Part shown: positions 22,432-33,071 of the stretch, one piece after another | How positions within the stretch are numbered: the first letter of the stretch is position 1 | Layout: each line of letters opens with the position of its first letter | From: Streptococcus sp. DD13 | Lineage (GTDB): Bacteria; Bacillota; Bacilli; Lactobacillales; Streptococcaceae | Assembly: GCF_001578875.1 (NCBI RefSeq) | Contig: NZ_KQ969506.1 | Location: forward strand, 802,122 to 838,338 | DNA: 36,217 nucleotides | Direction of reading: 5' to 3' | Notes under the pieces: model-generated | Database searches by the model: none | Told to the model about the DNA's origin: nothing | What the model saw: the letters and a program-made list of their open reading frames with translations, nothing else | Position numbers and translations under genes: made by a program

Positions 22432-22566
22432 CGCTTTCTTGGACTCTTTTGCTACCAGGCCGGTCACTTCTTCTTGAGTGAATGTCCTGGTTTGTTCTGT
22501 GCTTTCTTGCACTTGGTTTTCTCCAGGGTCAACTGCCTGGTCAGTAGGTTGAATTTTTTCTGCCAC
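22430..22566 (-). pseudogene. Truncated phage scaffold-like gene (DUF4355-like N-terminus)
   Basis: From a GTG at 22566, with AGGAGG 6 nt upstream, the minus strand reads about 45 plausible residues: MAEKIQPTDQAVDPGENQVQ, then ESTEQTRTFTQEEVTGLVAK and ESKKAQKKQ. The acidic N-terminus followed by FTQEEVxxLVAKxxKKAQKK is typical of phage capsid-scaffolding proteins of the DUF4355/gp20 type. The frame then runs into the mvaA terminator and the end of mvaA, so everything after about 22430 is not the original gene. It lies in the phage late-gene order expected after a minor capsid gene (23355-23843). Confidence 0.65.
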
Positions 22567-22617
22567 GATAGGCCTCCTGACTTTTGATATTCCCTTCTTT
22601 ACCGACTGCCGATAAAG
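22530..22617. repeat. 88-bp direct repeat, copy 1 (scaffold gene start)
   Basis: Identical to 22947-23034 at 83 of 88 positions. It covers the ribosome-binding site, GTG start and first codons of the truncated scaffold gene plus about 50 bp upstream. The two copies are 417 bp apart in the same orientation. Confidence 0.9.
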
Positions 22618-22685
22618 GCAAAATAAAAAGCCGTATTACTACGACTTCATATTGATTTTAAATAAAAAAGATGTATAATTTAGAT
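22618..22685. promoter_or_regulatory. Promoter of the first RNA candidate
   Basis: On the plus strand TTGATT (22652-22657), 16 nt, TATAAT (22674-22679). Transcription would begin near 22686, just before the first hairpin. Confidence 0.55.
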
Positions 22686-22761
22686 AAGATAAGTGATATT
22701 GACACTCTGCACCTATGGCCAGTTGGCTGTGCGGGACTGAGCAATATCGCTTATTTTTTTC
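22686..22761 (+). ncRNA. Candidate structured small RNA 1
   Basis: After a good promoter the sequence folds into a rod. The outer stem is AAGTGATATTG (22691-22701) with CAATATCGCTT (22742-22752). Inside it CTGCAC pairs with GTGCGG, and the tip is GGCC-AGTT-GGCT. A run of seven T follows immediately, so the rod is also the terminator and the RNA would be about 70 nt long. No convincing gene lies inside. The tip and its flank (ATGGCCAGTTGGCTGTG) resemble those of candidate RNA 2, suggesting related genes. I do not recognise a known family. Confidence 0.55.
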
Positions 22762-22804
22762 TTTTAAAAATATTAATAAACTCATTGTGAATTATAATTA
22801 AGTT

Positions 22805-22870
22805 AAGTAAAGGTGGTCTAACGCCCATGAAGCAGTTTGCTGTGGAGGCGGTGGGTCACCTTTATTTTTT
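22805..22870 (+). ncRNA. Candidate structured small RNA 2
   Basis: A TATAAT at 22793-22798 precedes a rod with the same three-tier plan as RNA 1: outer stem TAAAGGTG (22808-22815) with CACCTTTA (22857-22864), middle stem ACGCC with GGCGGT, tip AGCA-GTT-TGCT, then TTTTTT. The tip region ATGAAGCAGTTTGCTGTG aligns with ATGGCCAGTTGGCTGTG of RNA 1. The -35 region is poor. Function unknown. Confidence 0.55.
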
Positions 22871-22945
22871 ATTCGGTTTTAAAATATCTATCAATTTTTC
22901 GCCGTCTTTTATAATTGCGAACCCTAACCCACCTGAACTTCGTTT
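22862..22945 (-). pseudogene. C-terminal fragment of an unidentified protein
   Basis: The minus strand is open for 27 codons ending KRSSGGLGFAIIKDGEKLID then ILKPNKK and a TAA. It reads like the natural end of a protein but has no start; it is fused to the beginning of scaffold copy 2 in another frame. The parent gene was not recognised. Confidence 0.4.
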
Positions 22946-22983
22946 TCAACTGCCTGGTCAGTATGTTGGATTTCTTCTGCCAC
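22924..22983 (-). pseudogene. Second scaffold gene start, truncated after 19 codons
   Basis: From a GTG at 22983 with AGGAGG upstream, the frame reads MAEEIQHTDQAVENEVQVG and stops. It is the start of copy 2 of the 88-bp repeat with different codons after the repeat. It shows that two alleles of the same phage gene start were brought together here. Confidence 0.6.
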
Positions 22984-23034
22984 GATAGGCCTCCTGCCTT
23001 TTGATATTCCCTTCTTTACCGACTGCGGATAAAG
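22947..23034. repeat. 88-bp direct repeat, copy 2
   Basis: Partner of 22530-22617; five differences, all single bases. Confidence 0.9.
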
Positions 23035-23039
23035 TCTAA

Positions 23040-23113: not shown

Positions 23114-23144
23114 TAAGAAAAGCACCTAGATCGAACTAAGTGCT
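23114..23144 (-). terminator. Terminator after the putative immunity gene
   Basis: AGCACTTAG-TTCGAT-CTAGGTGCT followed by TTTTCTT on the minus strand; the stem overlaps the stop codon of the gene at 23143. Confidence 0.75.
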
Positions 23145-23358
23145 AATTGATTACTTGGATTGAAATGATGTCACTCTCAAAGAGGGAGACCTCTGTGGGG
23201 CCATCAGTACTAGGATTGTCAATGAGGATAGTGATTTCGTCTTGTTCATCATTGTCCATTTCATCAACAAAATCTGTGACAACACCCTTGATGATTTCGC
23301 CATCGCTATTGACTGCCTGAACTTTTGAGCGTAGGTAGTTCCAAAGTCGCTTACTCAT
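23143..23358 (-). CDS. Small acidic protein, putative immunity partner of the Ntox50-like toxin
   Basis: This 71-residue protein is strongly acidic (DFVDEMDNDEQDE in the middle) and apparently rich in beta strands (ITILIDNP, EVSLFESDIISIQVIN). No family is recognised. Its ATG overlaps the stop of the upstream toxin-domain gene by 4 nt (ATGA), the usual arrangement for a toxin and its immunity protein, and a terminator closes the pair. An acidic small protein directly after a basic RNase-type toxin domain fits an immunity role, but this rests on position and composition only. It could instead be an unrelated phage late gene. Confidence 0.7.
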   Translation of the reverse strand: MSKRLWNYLRSKVQAVNSDGEIIKGVVTDFVDEMDNDEQDEITILIDNPSTDGPTEVSLFESDIISIQVIN

Positions 23359-23843
23359 TTACTGTTTCCTTTCCCTTTGATAGTTGGCACAATATGAGCG
23401 CCAGTCTTACTGTAATGAATACGGAAATCAGTAACGTTCTCAATAACTTCACCAGTTCTAGGGTCTATATACGTCCCTATAGGTTTGATTTGTGAGATGA
23501 TTTCCTGCATTTTGGTTGATTTCGGATTGTACTTGAATTGTCCAGTACCTGCGTATCTGTCAATAAGTGCTTGGCACTCCTCTTTAGTGATTGTCAGATA
23601 GCTTGGTGGATGCTTGCCATTGGATAGGTTTTGAGCTAAGTACTCCTCATAGCCTTTGGTGCCTCTGATGTGTCTTTCAAAATGCTCGCTATTTATTTCT
23701 GTCTTAATTATACCACTTTTGACGGATGAAATAAATTTTTCACGCATTTCTTTTTGTTCCGCCCTGTGCTTTTCCAGTTTAGCTAGTTCACGGTAAGCAC
23801 GCATAATGGTTGTTTTGATGACTGATCTAGCGTAGTTATCCAC
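23355..23843 (-). pseudogene. 5'-truncated phage minor capsid (MuF-type) protein with C-terminal Ntox50-like toxin domain
   Basis: The frame gives 162 residues from a GTG at 23843. The N-terminus DNYARSVIKTTIMRAYRELAKLEKHR looks like the inside of a phage minor capsid/MuF protein. The same frame continues upstream as NGLEV before a stop, and there is no ribosome-binding site, so the front of the gene has been lost. The C-terminal 75-80 residues (LTITKEECQALIDRYAGTGQ, PIGTYIDPRTGEVIENVTDF, RIHYSKTGAHIVPTIKGKG) match the pattern I know for polymorphic toxin type 50, a predicted RNase domain. Toxin domains fused to MuF proteins of temperate phages are an established class. Whether the remnant is expressed is unknown. 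Confidence 0.68.
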
Positions 23844-24162: not shown

Positions 24163-24855
24163 ATTTCAATCCACGCACCCGTGAAGGGTGCGACAACATT
24201 TCTATTTTTACCCGTCTTAAATACCTTATTTCAATCCACGCACCCGTGAAGGGTGCGACTCCGAGTTTGGACCCTGTAGGACGGAATCCAGATGATTTCA
24301 ATCCACGCACCCGTGAAGGGTGCGACTTTCACCAGGGATATATTCCTTGGGGATTGTTCCATTTCAATCCACGCACCCGTGAAGGGTGCGACCGGAGCTT
24401 CCAAGGCCTCGGACGGGACCCCTCAAGATTTCAATCCACGCACCCGTGAAGGGTGCGACGGAACAATAATTGACCCTAAATTCTTTAAAAATATTTCAAT
24501 CCACGCACCCGTGAAGGGTGCGACCACTGTATATGTTTTGAAAACGTCTAAGACGGTAATTTCAATCCACGCACCCGTGAAGGGTGCGACCAGCGGAGAT
24601 CCCTGTTCCAATCCTAAGTAAAACATTTCAATCCACGCACCCGTGAAGGGTGCGACATTGGAGCATGATAACCAGATTGTAAATCAACTTGATTTCAATC
24701 CACGCACCCGTGAAGGGTGCGACTGACACTCACGGCATACCGTGATATAATATAATCAATTTCAATCCACGCACCCGTGAAGGGTGCGACAACTTCAAGG
24801 TTGAATGTGAGGTTAAATAACTAATTTCAATCCACGCACCCGTGAAGGGTGCGAC
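24163..24855 (-). CRISPR. Type I-C CRISPR array, 11 repeats and 10 spacers
   Basis: Eleven 32-bp repeats, all identical by eye, start at 24163, 24228, 24295, 24361, 24428, 24493, 24559, 24625, 24692, 24759 and 24824. In transcript orientation (minus) the repeat begins GTCGCACCCTTCACGG and ends GTGGATTGAAAT, with the GCACCC/GGGTGC hairpin of type I-C repeats. The spacers are 33-35 bp. Transcription is taken to run from the cas2 side (high coordinates), since the leader-like sequence at 24856-25000 lies there and the operon points towards the array. Even the distal repeat is intact, which suggests little decay. No spacer was seen to match other parts of this window. Confidence 0.98.
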
Positions 24856-25000: not shown

Positions 25001-25294
25001 TCACAAAAGTAAAACTCCAACATCAGGATCATAGCTGTCATCTCGACCAAGCGTCTCAACCCGATTCTGCCAATTTTTACCAAGTAAGTAAAAACGAATA
25101 CTGTCAGATTCTGAATCAATAATTGACAAGAGTTCACTTTTTATTTCAACAAATTCGGCAGGAGTGACTGAACATTCAAAAACGGAGTTTTGAACACGCT
25201 GTCCATAATCCACACAAACTTTTGCGACCTGACGCAGTCTTTTCCTACCTTTTACAGTTTCCGTATTCACATCATACGTTACTAATACCATCAT
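25001..25294 (-). CDS. cas2: CRISPR-associated protein Cas2
   Basis: This 97-residue protein starts MMVLVTYDVNTETVKGRKRL, the ferredoxin-like Cas2 fold with the conserved Asp at about 8 after the first strand. VQNSVFECSVTPAEF and SIRFYLLGKNW are typical of the I-C branch. With Cas1 it forms the adaptation complex that inserts new spacers at the leader end. AGGAG lies 7 nt before the first of two ATG codons. It is the last gene of the operon and ends at the edge of the leader, 145 bp from the first repeat. Confidence 0.95.
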   Translation of the reverse strand: MMVLVTYDVNTETVKGRKRLRQVAKVCVDYGQRVQNSVFECSVTPAEFVEIKSELLSIIDSESDSIRFYLLGKNWQNRVETLGRDDSYDPDVGVLLL

Positions 25295-25304
25295 ATAGCA
25301 ACTC

Positions 25305-26330
25305 CTATATTAAAAATGGAGGATAGGATTCCAATTCCCCGCGAATCGCTTTAGCCAATAACTGAGCCTGAACATAAGGTAATAACATCAATTTTACCTT
25401 TTCCTTCGTAAAAGGATGTTCAACCTCTGTGTGTTTTCGTTTTTGCCAGGCTTCAATAAAGGTTGCACGGCCTTTTTCTGTTAATATAACACTACCATTT
25501 TCCTTGTAGTCAAAATCTTTCTTGGTTAATTGTCCCTTATTAATCAGAGAAAAGACAAAGCGGTCAACGATAAAAGAACGAAATTCCTCCACCAAATCCA
25601 GTGCTAAGCTCGCACGACCAGGTCTATCTGTGTGAAAGAAACCGACATAACTATCTAAGCCAACCGCTTCTAGAGCTGACTGGCATTCATTCGTTAATAA
25701 GCTATAACCAAATGAGAGAAGGGCATTGACACAATCCATTGGAGGCCGTCTGGTGCGACCTTTAAACTGAAAGGTTTCCTTATCCGTCAATACTAAATCA
25801 TTAAAAATCCGAAAGTATTGATTAGCTGCCTGTCCTTCTATTCCCAACAACGAGTCCTTGTCTGAGGCTGCTTGAACTTCTTCTAATGCCCAGGTCAACT
25901 CTGTGTTTATCTCTTCAAAAAGTTGAGAGTCGACCCTATCTCTATGATCTCGCTTGAATCGTAGAAGGTACTTTCTGGAATTTGAAATCTTTGCAAGAAT
26001 AAAGCGCTTTGCATAGTCTAGTGATTGTTCATCATCTGCCAAACGATAATGAAGTCTCCGCAATAAAACGCTCCCATTTGTGCGTCCTACATAACGCCCG
26101 CAAAAACGTCCTTGTGGGGTGTGGAAAGACAAATTGATTTGATGTTCTGTACAAAGCTCTATAAGTGCCGGTGAGGCGCCCAAATACGAAAAGCAAACAA
26201 TACCATCAATAATGCGATAAGGAAATCGATGAACCACTTTTCCTTCTTGCTTAATAACAATATTATCCCTTTCACGCGTTAAATAAAAGTTATCTTGTGT
26301 CAAATATAAAGTATTCAACAGCTTTTTCAT
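25305..26330 (-). CDS. cas1: CRISPR-associated endonuclease Cas1
   Basis: This 341-residue integrase inserts spacers into the array. It shows the N-terminal beta domain (MKKLLNTLYLTQDNFYLTRE) and the catalytic helical domain with GIEGQAANQYF (conserved Glu), GFFHTDRPGRASLALDLVEEFR (conserved His and downstream Asp/Glu metal ligands) and a C-terminal SYPPFLI. Length and motifs fit type I-C Cas1. Its ATG overlaps the cas4 stop by 4 nt (ATGA), and cas2 starts 10 nt after its stop, so the three adaptation genes are translated together. Confidence 0.96.
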   Translation of the reverse strand: MKKLLNTLYLTQDNFYLTRERDNIVIKQEGKVVHRFPYRIIDGIVCFSYLGASPALIELCTEHQINLSFHTPQGRFCGRYVGRTNGSVLLRRLHYRLADDEQSLDYAKRFILAKISNSRKYLLRFKRDHRDRVDSQLFEEINTELTWALEEVQAASDKDSLLGIEGQAANQYFRIFNDLVLTDKETFQFKGRTRRPPMDCVNALLSFGYSLLTNECQSALEAVGLDSYVGFFHTDRPGRASLALDLVEEFRSFIVDRFVFSLINKGQLTKKDFDYKENGSVILTEKGRATFIEAWQKRKHTEVEHPFTKEKVKLMLLPYVQAQLLAKAIRGELESYPPFLI

Positions 26331-26998
26331 AAGCTTTCCTCACTTTTCAGCGCTTGGAAAATGTAATTGTCAATATTGCGTGTCTTTTTGCTTAAACGGG
26401 GCATGCAAATATCAACCAAAGAACACAGTTGGCAATTTTTAAAATACTCAGCTTTTGGAATCAACTTTTTATCATAATATTCATGCATTTGACAAGCTAG
26501 CTCAGCTACTTCTTGACGCAAATCAGAAGTCATCACAATTAGCTTTTTTTGATTGACACTATGATAATAAAGATACCCCTTTTCAATATGACAACCTAAT
26601 GTTTCTTCAAGGCAAATTGTTTGGGCAACCAGCTGAACAATATCACGATTGTCTCTTTTCGGTTTTCCTCGTTTGTATTCCACAATGACAGGTAACCATT
26701 TCCCACGTTTTCCTTTTAGAGAGATACCTTCTTCATCTTTGTAAAATTCAACTACATCTAAAATCCCATATAGTCCAAGTTCCTTTGATGAGACATGCAT
26801 GGCTCGTGAGGTGATGATATCTTTGCGCTTTTCTTTTATATAGGGATTATCTGCTTTTTGATGCAAAATTTGCCCATGAGCTGTCGCTTCGTTTTCAGCC
26901 CACTGTTGCTCAATATGAATCAAACTCCATTGGCGCTTGCAGAATTGGAAATGCTGAATACCAGACAACATCAAATAGTCACTTTCAGCATAAGCCAT
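26327..26998 (-). CDS. cas4: CRISPR-associated exonuclease Cas4
   Basis: This 223-residue RecB-type nuclease has a [4Fe-4S] cluster and helps select PAM-bearing, correctly oriented prespacers. The first cluster Cys is at about 20 (IQHFQFCKRQW). The other three are clustered near the C-terminus in NCQLCSLVDICMP. Nuclease residues include the LGLYGILDVVEF Asp and the VIVEYKRGKPK Glu-x-Lys motif. All key residues are in place. It starts one nt after the cas7 stop and overlaps cas1. Confidence 0.95.
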   Translation of the reverse strand: MAYAESDYLMLSGIQHFQFCKRQWSLIHIEQQWAENEATAHGQILHQKADNPYIKEKRKDIITSRAMHVSSKELGLYGILDVVEFYKDEEGISLKGKRGKWLPVIVEYKRGKPKRDNRDIVQLVAQTICLEETLGCHIEKGYLYYHSVNQKKLIVMTSDLRQEVAELACQMHEYYDKKLIPKAEYFKNCQLCSLVDICMPRLSKKTRNIDNYIFQALKSEESL

Positions 26999-26999
26999 C

Positions 27000-27848
27000 T
27001 TACAGTCCTTCTAAAACATCAACTTTCAGTCCTTTAGTTTCATATTCTGACAATTTTTCTTGATTGAGATGAATACCATAATCTTCGTAACTATCCTTAT
27101 CTTGTTTTTCTTCGTCAAATTCAAACAAGTCAAAAACACGCGCGCTGGAGACATTTCCTAACTTATTAGAATGAGTAAACCAGAATACTTCTCTTACCCG
27201 CATAGAACCTTCAGGGCGTGCAGAAGATGCGTCATTTTCAAAAAGACTGATGAGGGCTTCCTTAATGACCTCGGCATCTTCATTAGAGAATCCTGTTTTT
27301 TCAGCAAAATTTGGATTAATCGAACCTTTGATGACATAAACACCATAGTCTACGAAATGTTTAGTTCCCATGGTATCAGATGAACGCCCGCTTTCATTTT
27401 TAGCTTCCATACCATTAGTGCTACGGGTGATTTGCAGACTGGAGATGACGATTGGGTCTAGGGACTTCGCCATACTGATGGAAACTGGACCGCGTACGCC
27501 AATTGATTTTTTTAAATAAGTAAAGACTTGACCAAAAGAACGGACATCTAACCATAATTGATTGGCTTTTTCTTCAATTTCACTGTCAGGGGTTTTTGCT
27601 TCAAATTGATTTGAGAAACGTTTTTCCAAAGACTTAAAATCGTCTTCAATACGATCTCCTGCCTGTACAAATATAGACTGCCCCATGTCTTGCATACGAT
27701 TTCTGATTTTGCGTTTAATTGAAACATCACTCATCAAACCATAACCTTTGGCATCTGTTCTAGGCATATTTCCCGATAAGGGATCACCATTTGCATTAGC
27801 TTCTTTCACTTCAACTGTTACCATGAAATCAATTTTGTGTTCCAACAT
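27000..27848 (-). CDS. cas7: Type I-C Cascade backbone protein Cas7 (Csd2)
   Basis: This 282-residue Csd2 protein coats the spacer part of the crRNA along the Cascade filament. The N-terminus KIDFMVTVEVKEANANGDPLSGNMPRTDAKGYGLMSDV is the family signature, followed by IKRKIRNRM. Central motifs include RSFGQVFTYLK, GVRGPVSISMAKSLDP and the glycine-bearing TRSTNGMEAKNESGRSSDTMGTKHFVDYGVY. Length is normal. The ATG follows the cas8c stop by 3 nt. A short frame antisense to it is a shadow. Confidence 0.95.
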   Translation of the reverse strand: MLEHKIDFMVTVEVKEANANGDPLSGNMPRTDAKGYGLMSDVSIKRKIRNRMQDMGQSIFVQAGDRIEDDFKSLEKRFSNQFEAKTPDSEIEEKANQLWLDVRSFGQVFTYLKKSIGVRGPVSISMAKSLDPIVISSLQITRSTNGMEAKNESGRSSDTMGTKHFVDYGVYVIKGSINPNFAEKTGFSNEDAEVIKEALISLFENDASSARPEGSMRVREVFWFTHSNKLGNVSSARVFDLFEFDEEKQDKDSYEDYGIHLNQEKLSEYETKGLKVDVLEGL

Positions 27849-27851
27849 ATC

Positions 27852-29738
27852 TTATCCCTCGTTTTCTTTAGTTTGTTTAGTGTAATAAAATTGTTTTTCA
27901 GCATAGTAGCCAAAGATAAATTTATAATCTAATGGCTGTGTAAAGTCCTTATGAGCAAACATTGGTGTCAAGAGTTGAATAATTTCTTCTCTTTCCTTTT
28001 CCAGTTTATGCCAAAGGCCTGGTCTATTCAGCTTCAACACTTCCTCATAAGTCTTAATTTTATTTTCTAAGTGATTCATCATCTTAGCTGGTTGACCTGT
28101 ATAAGCATTCCAATACCGCTCAGCATTTGTGATACGTTCTTGACTGCCACCATCTAAAGCATAACGCTGTGCTTCGAACAGTTCATAAATTGCAAGCAAG
28201 CGCCCAAATAAATAAGAACGGTCTGTTTCTTGATGGTCTAACATTGGAGTAAACTCCCTTCCATATTGTTTGTGTAAAATCGCTAAACTAACTTGTTGCA
28301 CTTGATACCAGTGTTTAGAATATTTTTGTCTTTGCTTGATGTTGTCTTCTATTTTTTTAACAAGAGTATTTGGTATTGGTTTTCCATCAATCAAAGCAGT
28401 TACTAATTTCTGATATTGATCACTTCGAAAAGCATCATTGTCTAATTCTAAATAACGTTCTCTATCAACACCGTATGCAACATTGATTATTTCATTAAAA
28501 GTTGGTGTTTTTAATTTATAGTTTCCTGCCTTAGTTCTGACTTCCCAAGAATAATTTTCTTGCCAAGTTTTCAGATTTTTCAATAATTGGGAAGCTTGTA
28601 ATTGGCGGAAATATTTTAATGCAATACGGCCATTGCTTGTTTTATTCAGTATTGCAACATTGTAGGTTGCTTCTTCACCAAATAATTTTCGCCCCTTGAT
28701 AAATGAAGAACCTATTTGTCTATTTTCTTCATTTGGTTTGATGGAAACCAGAGCGTCTTCTTCGTCTTCAGCATCTTCAAACAAATCATTAAAAGCTGGA
28801 TTTACAATATCCAATTGGCTCTCATTCACTAAATCATCACTAAACCAATTAATCAAGTATTGTGACGAAGCAATCCAGGCGTTGCTATTATTATTCTCCA
28901 ACAGATACTTAATCATCAAATGGATTTTTTCTGAAGTTTCATAGCCAACACTAAAAACATCTTCCCGCTCCTTAAAACGTCCTTTATAGGCTTCGCCTTT
29001 ATTACTAACCGAAATGATTTTAGCATTTCCCATCAGTCCTCGATGTTTATTGGTAATTTGCTCCGTTTGTCCACTAATATTACAGGTCCCCAAATTGTCA
29101 CGATTAGCTGTTACTAACGAAATAAATGATTGATGCAATGCTTTATAACTAGTTACTGATTCATCTTTAAAACCATGAAATTGTACAACTGTAAACTCTA
29201 AGAAATAAGCTGATAAATCAATCGTTTTGTTTTTTCCAGTAGAGTCAGGATAGGTAATTTTCAAACCTTCTCTTTGATATTGCCTACCAAATAAAGAGTG
29301 AAGAATATGACTTAAAAAATCCGGTCGAAGAATAAATTGTTGAATCCTTTTCAAAAATCCTTTAACCTCATCCTCTTCGCAAACATCAATCCAATTGGAT
29401 AATTGATCATGAAATTTATCATACTGCGATTGGCTTTCTTCAGACACATAATAAGAAAACTTATCCACCAGCGGATGAGGAGCAGGACTAGAACCTGACC
29501 TTGCAACAGAATCTGAAGTTACCGGAAAGATAATGGTTTGATTTTCACCCATGACTTCCGCCTTATAAAAACTACCATCCTGATTTAATTTTACCGAGAT
29601 AATATTCTTCCCATTTGACTTCAAACTAGTATGATAAATCGGCAACAAAACAGTCCCACTGTTTCCATCTTGTTGATCAACTAAACCTGTTTCTTCTGCT
29701 TTTTCATAAGCATGTAAGAGAGAAGTAAAAAAATCCAT
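27852..29738 (-). CDS. cas8c: Type I-C Cascade large subunit Cas8c (Csd1)
   Basis: This 628-residue Csd1 protein is the large subunit that reads the PAM and stabilises the R-loop. It begins MDFFTSLLHAYEKAEETGLV, the typical start, with a N-terminal beta-rich domain (LLPIYHTSLKSNGKNIISV). Later segments such as NKHRGLMGNAKIISVSNKGEAYKG, ALKYFRQLQASQLLKNLKTW and LGRLLAIYELFEAQRYALDG-like FGRLLAIYELFEAQRYALDG are family hallmarks. In type I-C the 3' part of this gene often yields a separate small Cas11 subunit by internal initiation; no candidate start was chosen here. Its ATG shares a base with the cas5 stop (TAATG). Confidence 0.94.
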   Translation of the reverse strand: MDFFTSLLHAYEKAEETGLVDQQDGNSGTVLLPIYHTSLKSNGKNIISVKLNQDGSFYKAEVMGENQTIIFPVTSDSVARSGSSPAPHPLVDKFSYYVSEESQSQYDKFHDQLSNWIDVCEEDEVKGFLKRIQQFILRPDFLSHILHSLFGRQYQREGLKITYPDSTGKNKTIDLSAYFLEFTVVQFHGFKDESVTSYKALHQSFISLVTANRDNLGTCNISGQTEQITNKHRGLMGNAKIISVSNKGEAYKGRFKEREDVFSVGYETSEKIHLMIKYLLENNNSNAWIASSQYLINWFSDDLVNESQLDIVNPAFNDLFEDAEDEEDALVSIKPNEENRQIGSSFIKGRKLFGEEATYNVAILNKTSNGRIALKYFRQLQASQLLKNLKTWQENYSWEVRTKAGNYKLKTPTFNEIINVAYGVDRERYLELDNDAFRSDQYQKLVTALIDGKPIPNTLVKKIEDNIKQRQKYSKHWYQVQQVSLAILHKQYGREFTPMLDHQETDRSYLFGRLLAIYELFEAQRYALDGGSQERITNAERYWNAYTGQPAKMMNHLENKIKTYEEVLKLNRPGLWHKLEKEREEIIQLLTPMFAHKDFTQPLDYKFIFGYYAEKQFYYTKQTKENEG

Positions 29739-30466
29739 TAGTTTTCCCCTTTCTCTATGGCTTCATATTCTTTATATTCTTCGTCAACTGATTTAATATG
29801 ACCAGGCGTTTTAAATACGTAACTAGACAGAGTATTTTCAATCTCACACTCAGACTGAGGCTTAAACTTAATCACACCATTGTTCATTACTGTCTTAGAA
29901 AAATATGACTTCAAAGGCGTTTCTTTATCAGTCGGATAGGCAAACGAATGAAACATAATGCCTAAATCGATTGAAATTCCATCGTAGTAAGAAGGAATCG
30001 TTTCATATTCTTCCTGACTAATTTCATCTACCAAACCAAAGCACTCTCTTGTACCAAGAAAAACATCTCGCCGTCCACCTTTTCGAATCGAGCGTTGCAT
30101 AATGGCCTCGTGTTTGTTAGGTAGCCTATCTTGCATTAAATCTTCACGATTTTCATTCCATATAAAATGAAATTTTACAAGGTACTCCACATCACTCAAA
30201 TAGGACACATAGCTCAAATCGGCACTATAGTCATGCAACAAAGCACGGACACCGTGTAGCTCTGTCTGAATCTGATTGACCACCTTAACCTCAGTCACAA
30301 TATTTGTAAATGTTGGCTTATGATAGATGCTATCAATCATGCCTTGCAGTGCTTGTCTAGTTGGAACTGAGTACGATGATCTTTCGCTTCCGCCTTTAGT
30401 GGCAGGACTCGTGAAAAGCGCCCGATCTCCACGAACTCTAACATAGAAATTTCTTGACCTGTACAA
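29738..30466 (-). CDS. cas5: Type I-C crRNA-processing nuclease Cas5c (Cas5d)
   Basis: This 242-residue protein cuts the pre-crRNA within each repeat and holds the 5' handle in Cascade; type I-C has no Cas6. It reads MYRSRNFYVRVRGDRALFTS with the glycine-bearing KGGSERSSYSVPTRQALQGM segment and SIRKGGRRDVFLGTRECFG. The start is a TTG at 30466, supported by AGGAGG 8 nt upstream and by the expected N-terminal sequence; no in-frame ATG fits. The gene is separated from cas3 by 110 nt, unlike the tightly packed genes after it. Confidence 0.94.
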   Translation of the reverse strand: MYRSRNFYVRVRGDRALFTSPATKGGSERSSYSVPTRQALQGMIDSIYHKPTFTNIVTEVKVVNQIQTELHGVRALLHDYSADLSYVSYLSDVEYLVKFHFIWNENREDLMQDRLPNKHEAIMQRSIRKGGRRDVFLGTRECFGLVDEISQEEYETIPSYYDGISIDLGIMFHSFAYPTDKETPLKSYFSKTVMNNGVIKFKPQSECEIENTLSSYVFKTPGHIKSVDEEYKEYEAIEKGEN

Positions 30467-30576
30467 AGTGAAAACCTCCTTCTGTAATTTTATAATCTTA
30501 GCACTAAAAATTTTAAAAGTTAGTAATTTTTCCCATCATAACGAAATTCTCTACTGACTCGTTGGCCTATTTCATT
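30467..30576 (-). promoter_or_regulatory. 110-nt gap between cas3 and cas5, possible internal promoter
   Basis: The gap is AT-rich and contains TATAAAAT (about 30488-30495, minus strand) roughly 20 nt before the cas5 TTG and its AGGAGG. No terminator is seen. A weak second promoter for the Cascade and adaptation genes is possible. Confidence 0.3.
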
Positions 30577-32991
30577 TTATAGTAGAAAACTTCCTCTTTC
30601 TAAGGTAATACCTTTCTTCTCATCATAATAGCCATCTGACAATATCCGGATTTGCCCATCCAGATAGGTTTTTGTAGCTTCTAAAACAGGATCATGTTCA
30701 CGAACACTAACTGTATAGGGTTGCAGTTCTCTCAAGAAAGTTTTTATTGTTTGATACTCTTCGTCCGAGGGGTAATCTGACAAACATAATTCCTCTAAAA
30801 ACTGTAGTTTCTCAATAGCATCTCCATAAGGAACCAAGACACCTATCGTATCATTGTTGATTAGGTTCATTTTTAAACCGGCACACTTGAAGGCCTGTTT
30901 TAATTTCCCTTTAAATTTTGTTTTTCTCTGGTAATAATTACTGCTTAGATAGTCATAGACTGATTCATTGTCATTATTTAAGGGATAATCCATCATAGAC
31001 TGGTTATTCGCATAGTAATATTCAAAGAAATTATGGTTTAGAGATGAAATCTCAATAGGAGATGAACTTTTATCAAGAATGACCTCTGTTGCATCCTTCT
31101 TAGCTTTTATTTCTTTCAGTCGAGAAATATTTTCTTCTTCATTTGTGAGATTAATTAAGGTGACTTGACCTTTATCAAGTTTACCCTCACGATTGCAACG
31201 ACCACTAGCCTGTACAATGGAATCAATCCCTGCATAAGATCGAATAACACGATTAAAATCAACGTCAACACCGGCTTCAATTAATTGTGTGCTAATACAA
31301 ATAATAGGTAGACCATCTTTTAATTGTTGTTTCATCGCCGAAATAACATCCAATCTGTGTTGCGCACACATATTGGTCGAAAGCTGATAGATTGGTCTAT
31401 TTGTCAATCCTTCAATCAAGGTATAAAATTTATCAACTGTCTTTTTTGTATTGAAAATTGCAAGAATAGACTCATCATTTTCTAAAACATAATCTACTAA
31501 ATCTGAAAGCCTTGATTTTTGATTAGTTTCATCAAACTTTCTTAGCTCGGTTCTCGAAAAGACTTCCCTTTCTTCAAGGGTTAACTCAACAATATCAACA
31601 GTTTCACCAGATTTTCCACCATAAGAGATTTTATGGGTGATTGTGTTAGAATCATAGGCGGGTTGTGTTGCAGTACATAGAATAATGGTTGTATTCATGA
31701 CTTTATTTAAAAAATTCATGGTTAAATTAAATAACGTTGTCACTTCAATGGGCAGAGATTGAACTTCATCTAAGACCAGAACAGCATTTGCTAAATTTGA
31801 AAATCGACGAATATTTGCAGATCTAGTTTTAAATAAGGTTTGAAAAAATTGTACCATGGATGTCAGAACAACGGGACTATCCCATGTGTCAACGAGATAG
31901 TCTGATAGCAATCTCTCTTTCTCATCGGCGTTTTTATCGTCATCGTCTTTTTGCGTCACTACATTAGAATGGTGTTCCAACACGCCTTTATCTCCAGTTA
32001 CCTTTTTTATTTCAGATGCATTTTGTTCCAAAACAGATAAAAAAGGAGTTACATAGAAAAATCGCGACCTGTTCTGATAAACTAATTGATGGAAAGCATA
32101 TCTCATACTGAGATTTGTTTTTCCAGCACCAGTCGGCAAATCTAAACGATAGATACCTGTCGAATCATTTTCTCCCCGAAATTTTACTCGTTCAGCAATT
32201 TGTGAACGAACTTCATTCAATCTTGTCGTCGGGTGGCTGAAACTAAGATACTTTTTTTCAATGGCTTCCAAATAGAAATTAATGAGGTCGCTCTTTTCTT
32301 TTTGGCTTAGAGGATTAACAATTACACCATAAGCATTTATCGTATCCAGAATATCTGCATTTTTTAAAAGAGATAAGTATAATCGAACAAAGCACCCTCT
32401 ATAAAAATCTTTTTCAGAATCATCTGAGCATGAAAGTTGAGTCCAGGCTTGCTGATAATTACCAAAAGCTTTTTGAATCAAGTCATTTAAATCAACATAG
32501 CCATAATCAGGAAGTGCTTTTTCTAATATCTCCGCATTAGCAATAATATCCTCTCGATAGATTTTATCTTCAATACCACTCATTATTCTTTGCCTTAATT
32601 TATTATAAGAAAAAGAACTTGGATCAGAAGCTTCATCAGTTAAAGGTATATCATACACCCCATGGTGGGCGGAAATGACATAGGCCACTATCTCTTGAAA
32701 AACAATTCTTTCTTCCTTAGGGATAGTTAACATTTTTAAACAATCCTGAATTCTTTCAAATAAATACCTTGATCCAGCAGAAGAATGATTAACATGTTTT
32801 TTAGGTGAGTTCATTAATTTCTCTTGAAATTCCCTATTTGCCTTACCCAAATCATGATACAAACCTATCAAAAAAAGAACGTCTCCTTGTTCTATCACTT
32901 CGGCCTGCTCTTTTCCCTGTATAGCTACTTGGCATAGATGGTCTTTTAAAGATTGTTGCTGTCCAAATTTATTAATATGAGCTATTATCAT
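30577..32991 (-). CDS. cas3: CRISPR-associated helicase-nuclease Cas3 (type I-C)
   Basis: This is the effector that unwinds and degrades target DNA after Cascade binds. The start is placed at ATG 32991 (MIIAHINKFGQQQSLKDHL; AGGA 8 nt upstream), giving 804 residues; a frame from 33066 adds 25 atypical residues. The N-terminal HD nuclease has GLYHDLGKANREFQEKL (HD), HSSAGSRYLFE and AHHGVYD. The SF2 helicase has LPTGAGKTNLSMRYA (Walker A), VLDEVQSLP (DEVQ box), TATQPAYDS, STQLIEAGVDVDF and QASGRCNREGK (motif VI). All catalytic motifs are intact. It is the first gene of the operon, behind the promoter and palindrome near 33055-33083. Confidence 0.95.
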   Translation of the reverse strand: MIIAHINKFGQQQSLKDHLCQVAIQGKEQAEVIEQGDVLFLIGLYHDLGKANREFQEKLMNSPKKHVNHSSAGSRYLFERIQDCLKMLTIPKEERIVFQEIVAYVISAHHGVYDIPLTDEASDPSSFSYNKLRQRIMSGIEDKIYREDIIANAEILEKALPDYGYVDLNDLIQKAFGNYQQAWTQLSCSDDSEKDFYRGCFVRLYLSLLKNADILDTINAYGVIVNPLSQKEKSDLINFYLEAIEKKYLSFSHPTTRLNEVRSQIAERVKFRGENDSTGIYRLDLPTGAGKTNLSMRYAFHQLVYQNRSRFFYVTPFLSVLEQNASEIKKVTGDKGVLEHHSNVVTQKDDDDKNADEKERLLSDYLVDTWDSPVVLTSMVQFFQTLFKTRSANIRRFSNLANAVLVLDEVQSLPIEVTTLFNLTMNFLNKVMNTTIILCTATQPAYDSNTITHKISYGGKSGETVDIVELTLEEREVFSRTELRKFDETNQKSRLSDLVDYVLENDESILAIFNTKKTVDKFYTLIEGLTNRPIYQLSTNMCAQHRLDVISAMKQQLKDGLPIICISTQLIEAGVDVDFNRVIRSYAGIDSIVQASGRCNREGKLDKGQVTLINLTNEEENISRLKEIKAKKDATEVILDKSSSPIEISSLNHNFFEYYYANNQSMMDYPLNNDNESVYDYLSSNYYQRKTKFKGKLKQAFKCAGLKMNLINNDTIGVLVPYGDAIEKLQFLEELCLSDYPSDEEYQTIKTFLRELQPYTVSVREHDPVLEATKTYLDGQIRILSDGYYDEKKGITLERGSFLL

Positions 32992-33054
32992 TACTGCAAT
33001 CCTATTATTATTCCAACTCAAAAGATAGCGTTTACAAGAATATGTTACCATGTT

Positions 33055-33071
33055 CTTGTATGACATACAAG
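33055..33071. promoter_or_regulatory. Palindrome at the cas operon promoter
   Basis: CTTGTATG-A-CATACAAG is a perfect 8-bp inverted repeat with a one-base centre, starting 4 nt downstream of the -10 box and about 64 nt before the cas3 start. A further half-like copy (TTACAAGAA) lies at 33032-33040. It has the form of an operator; which protein binds it is unknown. Confidence 0.55.

Follow-up and report, generated by a model that had tools for sequence, protein, structure and literature searches.

Introduction

In the txpA/RatA and bsrG/SR4 pairs, which are often found in prophages, a convergent RNA is encoded at the 3' end of the toxin gene, and RatA acts on the txpA mRNA as an antisense silencer or destabiliser. 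ToxIN and AbiQ belong to a different class, the type III toxin-antitoxin systems. A further group of phage-borne toxins, the MuF toxins, is confined to temperate phages; by hypothesis they are carried inside the head and delivered together with the DNA (PMC5576092, as excerpted). According to the same excerpts these toxins are expected to need an immunity protein, a small ORF lies behind 89.4% of 191 muf toxin genes, and the immunity factors of polymorphic toxins are described as proteins. Among the matches listed from the full text of open-licence PMC papers, none described an RNA immunity factor for a polymorphic toxin. Small RNAs of prophages have been listed (PMC2765633), and 19 prophage ncRNAs have been reported (PMC6431027).

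Here we describe a family of rod-shaped RNAs, encountered as two neighbouring units in a genomic locus of Streptococcus sp. DD13. They are structured plus-strand RNAs with promoter-like and terminator-like ends, linked with CdiA_C toxin tips in Streptococcus and orphaned in satellites.

Two rod-shaped RNA units in a decayed phage locus

The window, a stretch of 36,217 nucleotides, holds two successive plus-strand units (Table 1), which had been proposed from the sequence as a TATAAT box, a rod fold and a U-run each. This description was borne out, with TATAAT 6 nt before the rod and a U-run after it in both units, and folds that go far beyond those of shuffled sequences (z = -5.8 for unit 1 and -4.3 for unit 2, 0 of 200 shuffles as good in each case; z = -5.4 for the two units folded jointly). 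The minus strands of units 1 and 2 also fold (z = -3.5 and -4.0, respectively, 1 of 200 shuffles each), less stably than the plus strands, as expected from the G-U pairs on the latter. The -10 box of unit 1 (22674-22679) is accompanied by a -35-like TTGATT. A promoter scan returned two promoter-like sites in the rod region, against 2.2 in shuffles; the TATAAT of unit 2 was missing from its output, and the -35 position of this unit is poor by eye. Relatives L032 and L033 show TTGAAA at 17 nt by eye, and the -10 box of relatives is TATAAT or departs from it slightly, for instance as TATACT or TACAAT.

Table 1. Position of the rod units and neighbouring features in the window, and rod content of satellites and of one genome locus.
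Feature	Position	Strand	Basis
Unit 1 promoter-like site (TTGATT, 16 nt, TATAAT)	22652..22679	+	Consensus match only
Unit 1 rod RNA, type U1	22686..22757, U-run to 22760	+	Folding; promoter, rod and U-run scan
Unit 2 -10 box TATAAT	22793..22798	+	Sequence; comparison with relatives
Unit 2 rod RNA, type A	22805..22867, U-run to 22870	+	Folding, homologues, covariation
3' remnant of CdiA_C toxin tip, GLGFAIIKDGEKLIDILKPNKK, stop within rod end	22862..22930	-	Translated frame against Javan345 tip
94-nt repeat copy 1, phage-gene-like remnant	22529..22622	-	93% identical to 22946-23039
94-nt repeat copy 2, phage-gene-like remnant	22946..23039	-	93% identical to copy 1
ORF with Ntox50 toxin domain (PF15542)	23355..23843	-	Profile match, E 2.9e-21
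Satellite Javan267 (L139): rods A, B, C, D			
Satellite Javan368 (L134): rods C, B, F			
Satellite Javan265 (L131): rods E and A/C intermediate			
Satellites Javan620 and Javan634: rods A and E			
Satellite Javan243 (example): single rod			
Genome locus L071: rods B, C, A, D in a row			

The original prediction, which knew of no family for these units, is matched by Rfam 15, where no family reached the gathering threshold anywhere in the window and no convincing match to the rods appeared up to E 10. It had also noted a kinship between the apices of the two rods. The start regions of units 1 and 2 share 80% identity over 20 nt and such a kinship is plausible, but the alignment is short and unit 1 had no homologue in 284 Streptococcus genomes or in phage records (50,697), nor did its 24-nt core occur in IMG/VR.

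Both rods sit between the two copies of a 94-nt phage-like repeat and, as had been stated, run opposite to the phage remnants. The end of unit 2 overlaps the stop codon of a 22-residue remnant, 19 residues of which match the end of the toxin tip of phage Javan345 (counted by eye), which suggests that here, as in satellites, the toxin was lost and the RNA kept. The window is thus best explained as a decayed phage locus that lost its toxin and retained unit 2 (type A) together with unit 1. By analogy with the arrays of different rods carried by satellites, unit 1 may be a further immunity type. The same genome contains a second pair elsewhere (C1:227096), consisting of a tip fragment below the family cut-off and a type E rod.

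Other features of the surroundings deserve mention in their own right. The Ntox50 ORF is a second toxin-like remnant near the rods, outside the rod pair; it is followed by a 71-aa ORF without Pfam match (23143-23358, minus strand), and the two are possibly a tip and its protein immunity gene. Further on, a type I-C CRISPR-Cas system occupies 24163-24855 and 25001-33066 on the minus strand, with 11 repeats, cas8c, cas7, cas4, cas1 and cas2 (NCBIfam), and ORFs recognised by eye as cas5 and cas3.

A covarying RNA family in Streptococcus phages and satellites

Relatives of unit 2 were found in 17 of the 284 Streptococcus genomes, its own included (two of the matches are short), and in 43 of the 50,697 phage records, all of them from Streptococcus and corresponding by name to 24 phages and 19 satellites. 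Relatives also occur in 15 stretches from IMG/VR and in seven named contigs of Streptococcus genomes. Plasmids gave no rod match, and in the searches made the relatives are confined to phages, satellites and genomes of Streptococcus.

We aligned 26 rods chosen from those found (types A and C and A/C intermediates). In this subset 95.3% of the cells pair, 13 of the 20 pairs have changed on both sides, and the covariation score of 0.531 exceeds both the 0.234 of shuffles and the maximum of 0.184 reached on sliding. The central part of the rod (UCUAACGCC...GGCGGUGGG) hardly varies, whereas the outer stem has drifted with compensation. That outer stems differ in sequence while keeping their pairing, proposed at first from units 1 and 2, was therefore confirmed with true homologues of unit 2. 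Moreover, the plus strand contains 94 G-U cells versus three A-C cells, which argues for selection on the plus-strand RNA and not on a DNA hairpin or on the late mRNA. The view of the rods as a conserved RNA structure and not a coding sequence accordingly stands for unit 2, on covariation and G-U excess. A k-turn seen by eye in type A was rejected because the related type C does not keep it.

Beyond type A, scanning for promoter, rod and U-run and later reading yielded types B, C, D, E and F, then G and H; the type names are our own and were assigned by eye. Type H resembles type B by eye. The satellites that were read carry one to four rods each, and where there are several they are of different types (Table 1), with no fixed gene context or strand. 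In satellite Javan620, the last 28 residues of a toxin tip adjoin the A rod, which suggests that this rod was taken from a phage.

Three observations were made alongside. Satellite Javan286 (L142:497-556) bears another promoter-rod-U-run unit, unassigned as to type. A chromosomal cluster behind gpmA (L077:9463-10230) consists of a type A rod, a pair of genes resembling by eye ribbon-helix-helix and RelE proteins, and an A/C rod. Finally, the Rfam sRNAs SpF01 and skipping-rope adjoin rods at two loci (L007:1183-1262 and L003:1628-1720).

Rods adjoin CdiA_C toxin tips

Nine annotated phages were read, and in each a single rod runs antisense to the minor head protein gene at its 3' end, a place where types A, C, D and E interchange. 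The head proteins tested all end in a CdiA_C domain (PF18451, 8 of 8, E 5e-13 to 3e-21), preceded by PF04233 (MuF) at the N-terminus in six and by PF06152 (Phage_min_cap2) in two. All eight hence join a phage head N-terminus to a C-terminal toxin domain, as MuF toxins do, and the occurrence of CdiA_C on two N-terminal families indicates that the rod goes with the toxin and not with the phage.

Searching the 284 Streptococcus genomes with PF18451 gave nine domains in eight genomes, one of them a fragment below the cut-off. An antisense rod with U-run is present at the stop codon of every one (9/9; types F, G, A, A, C, E, E, E and E), preceded by TATAAT in seven cases and TATACT in two. At these nine loci the end of the best-folding stretch falls anywhere from 4 nt short of the stop codon to 20 nt inside the gene, the latter being the limit of the stretch read, and the rest lies in the downstream spacer. 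An RNA gene therefore stands next to a nuclease-type toxin gene in 9 of 9 cases, as in type III systems; for the tips, 'nuclease' is taken from the Pfam name and a motif.

The same association holds in phages. A tblastn search with one tip as query (E 1e-3; more divergent tips could be missed) against the 50,697 phage records matched 31 records of Streptococcus phages, in addition to a remnant in one satellite and two records of mycobacteriophages. All 31 Streptococcus phage records have an adjacent rod (A in 24, C in one, D in one, E in two, F in one and H in two), 28 of them by position comparison, and SMP (one of its two records) and IPP24 by reading. The SMP rod is of type H and that of IPP24 of type F; the IPP24 tip is 80% identical to another type F tip, encoded in a bacterial genome. 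Conversely, each of the 24 phage records that carry a type A or A/C rod belongs to the 31 that bear a tip. In the 19 satellite records with such a rod, the tip query finds only one 28-residue remnant. In IMG/VR the tip accompanies the A core in 13 of 15 stretches, and the other two are contigs of satellite size (10.5 and 12.4 kb). Type D adjoins a tip in one phage only, and type B and unit 1 in none.

The tips share the invariant pattern PDYL...D.K...G.K..D. By eye, this motif and the Pfam name make the tip a putative PD-(D/E)xK nuclease; structure prediction gave a poor model of the tip (mean pLDDT 60), and comparison with the PDB by sequence returned repeat-like chance matches only.

Rod types go with tip groups

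Among 19 tips, some of them near-identical so that pairs are not independent, those sharing a rod type have a mean identity of 78% (47 pairs; the lowest, 47%, involves a fragment), versus 50% for tips of different rod types (124 pairs; highest 63%). Rod types thus go with tip groups. A finer correspondence was not detected: a Mantel test of rod against tip distances was not significant (r 0.34 for nine pairs, 307/5000; r 0.13 for six types, 220/720), and the type A tip of Javan345 is 60% identical to a type C tip versus 54-58% to other type A tips.

Downstream ORFs in Streptococcus and in other genera

At 17 tips from Streptococcus, 89-348 nt separate the tip from the start of the first ORF behind it that has a ribosome-site motif, with the exception of a GTG ORF at 6 nt (109751). 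Identical ORF families occur behind A and F, A and E, and C and H tips, and no immunity protein gene both directly downstream and following the toxin type was found at these 17 tips. A hydrophobic ORF of 37-38 aa lies behind four of eight A tips (P9, Javan273, Javan17 and MGAS5005), where it could be a protein partner.

As a control we took 295 genomes from the order, part of which belong to Streptococcus itself. Outside the genus they hold five CdiA_C domains, distributed over four genomes and scoring more weakly (E 1e-7 to 1e-9). No antisense rod accompanies any of these five tips (best folds between -9 and -13.5 kcal/mol). Instead, an ORF of 76-84 aa bearing the pattern C-x-C...C-x-x-C starts 10-15 nt after the stop of each (5/5, L240-L244) and likely encodes the immunity protein in these genera.

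Rods as proposed RNA immunity, and alternative readings

The reading that we prefer, with a probability of roughly 0.6, is that the rods are RNA immunity factors (antitoxins) which would neutralise phage-delivered CdiA_C tips, and that satellites carry orphan copies of them. The rod would be a small RNA of about 50-75 nt, made from a single transcription unit of promoter, rod and U-run. In phages, its gene converges on the toxin gene and reaches up to or across the stop codon of the latter. Its own promoter points towards the late operon, so that the RNA could be made in a lysogen while the late genes are silent. The tip would enter a new host together with the phage DNA, and in a lysogen or satellite carrier the pre-existing RNA would bind it through the conserved rod core and block it. 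The one to four rods of satellites would likewise act as orphan immunity RNAs. A nearly invariant core within a covarying outer stem fits an RNA that a protein recognises through its core, and binding by a protein explains at once the constant core, the free outer stem and orphans acting in trans. We infer that the rod is expressed, binds the tip protein and neutralises it, and that the tip is delivered. For the more elaborate version, a polymorphic toxin system in which each tip has its type-specific rod and satellites and decayed prophages collect orphan rods as a library against the tips of competing or helper phages, we see an even chance.

The original prediction had named as possible roles a stand-alone regulatory RNA and the antisense control of a phage or toxin gene since lost. 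The link with a toxin proved stronger than it had guessed; antisense control is now less favoured and constitutes the main rival. According to this unlikely alternative, the rod would be a type I-like antitoxin, pairing with the toxin mRNA immediately after the stop codon in the late transcript to silence or destabilise it, and satellite rods would act in trans against late mRNA of phages of the same type. A 3'-antisense antitoxin would likewise be convergent with its toxin gene, as the rods are at the stop codon of all nine loci, and the only site in its own genome complementary to the A core is its own locus (up to 3 mismatches over 19 nt or 2 over 16 nt); at the same thresholds a search for host RNA targets gave no second site there. 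However, an antisense RNA acting in cis needs no conserved core, yet the core is near-invariant while the outer stem drifts; the G-U to A-C ratio of 94 to 3 on the plus strand also speaks against it, and silencing an mRNA would give no protection against a tip that arrives as protein. The conserved core, the covarying outer stem, the orphan satellite copies and the lack of a downstream protein gene consistently following the tip type together favour a toxin-neutralising RNA over antisense control.

That the rods act on the phage late operon, as regulatory RNAs or as convergent terminators, with no immunity function, is considerably less probable. Such a role would account for the rod lying within the head operon of the inspected phages and facing it, but satellites have rods without a head operon, in either orientation, and rod type goes with tip group.

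We give very little credence to the rods being RNA anti-CRISPRs (Racr) that would mimic I-C repeats (unit 1 and type E) or I-E repeats (type D) and sequester Cas proteins. A I-C system adjoins the rods in the window. Mimicry of CRISPR repeats looked promising by eye; it was weak in a two-arm alignment test and failed with covariance models. In the alignment test, whose background was 400 of 3002 hairpins after exclusion of those holding rod or repeat words, type D matched I-E at p 0.005 and E2 and unit 1 matched I-C at p 0.015 each (14 x 6 comparisons, uncorrected). Reversed and antisense controls scored equally, however (unit 1 with reversed I-C, p 0.005; type C with antisense I-C, p 0.015; D with reversed I-E, p 0.025), and types A, B and C were mostly within background (one A variant at p 0.042). 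The covariance models were built from 13 (I-C) and six (I-E) distinct Streptococcus repeats, three of 39 loci having yielded none. Over 42 sources, with filters off on six, the I-C model recovered the full set of 11 repeats in the window but no rod, and the I-E model, for which the sources hold no positive control, found no rod either. Furthermore, the 17 genomes with unit 2 relatives and the 27 with a I-C cas1 match overlap in the DD13 genome only.

Finally, that the rods are orphan relatives or mimics of AbiF/Abi_2 RNA antitoxins is barely credible, as the shared layout of promoter, hairpin and U-run, seen by eye upstream of many streptococcal Abi_2 genes, comes with no sequence kinship by blastn (best match in 30 Abi_2 loci no better than E 0.32), Rfam (abiF absent from matches up to E 10) or local alignment against shuffles (0 of 9 rod cores above the null with 60 non-redundant of 90 Abi_2 upstream regions). 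The Abi_2 upstream hairpin units (L040-L069 and L171-L230) fall by eye into several unrelated sequence classes. Rfam recognised one unrelated sRNA only in 12 Abi_2 loci, and these hairpins are perhaps undescribed AbiF RNA regulators.

If the rods are indeed RNA immunity factors, one kind of immunity gene escapes protein-based annotation, toxins without an evident immunity gene deserve re-examination, and satellites would come to be seen as carriers of RNA immunity genes. Rod and tip would also offer a direct, small and testable toxin-RNA pair.

Comparison with known systems

The rods differ from the abiF RNA motif in having neither sequence kinship with it nor an abi_2 gene next door. With RNA anti-CRISPRs (PMC10651486, as excerpted) they would have in common that small structured phage RNAs are used in conflict, but covariance models of Streptococcus I-C and I-E repeats detect no repeat match in them. 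Like the RNAs of type I systems with 3' overlap, such as txpA/RatA and bsrG/SR4, they are convergent with the toxin gene and lie at its 3' end. The type I toxin is a small membrane peptide, whereas here it is a CdiA_C tip and not a hydrophobic peptide of this kind, and the rod core is conserved in copies elsewhere.

The proposed mode of action brings the rods closer to the type III systems ToxIN and AbiQ and to AbiF-RCd22 (PMC12373285, as excerpted), where an RNA is likewise proposed to neutralise a nuclease-type toxin directly. Type III RNAs are tandem motifs upstream of the toxin on the same strand, in contrast to the rods, which are downstream, convergent and single in the phages read. The rod toxin is moreover the tip of a virion protein, and orphan rods occur in satellites, which sets them apart from both type III systems and AbiF-RCd22.

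On the toxin side, the likeness is with MuF toxins, also minor head proteins with a C-terminal toxin domain in temperate phages of Streptococcus, although the MuF domain is absent from the head proteins of two of the eight tips, where Phage_min_cap2 takes its place. In both cases the presumed immunity factor has its place directly behind the toxin gene. In the excerpts of PMC5576092 that place is assumed to belong to a small downstream ORF, whereas here it is occupied by a convergent RNA gene.
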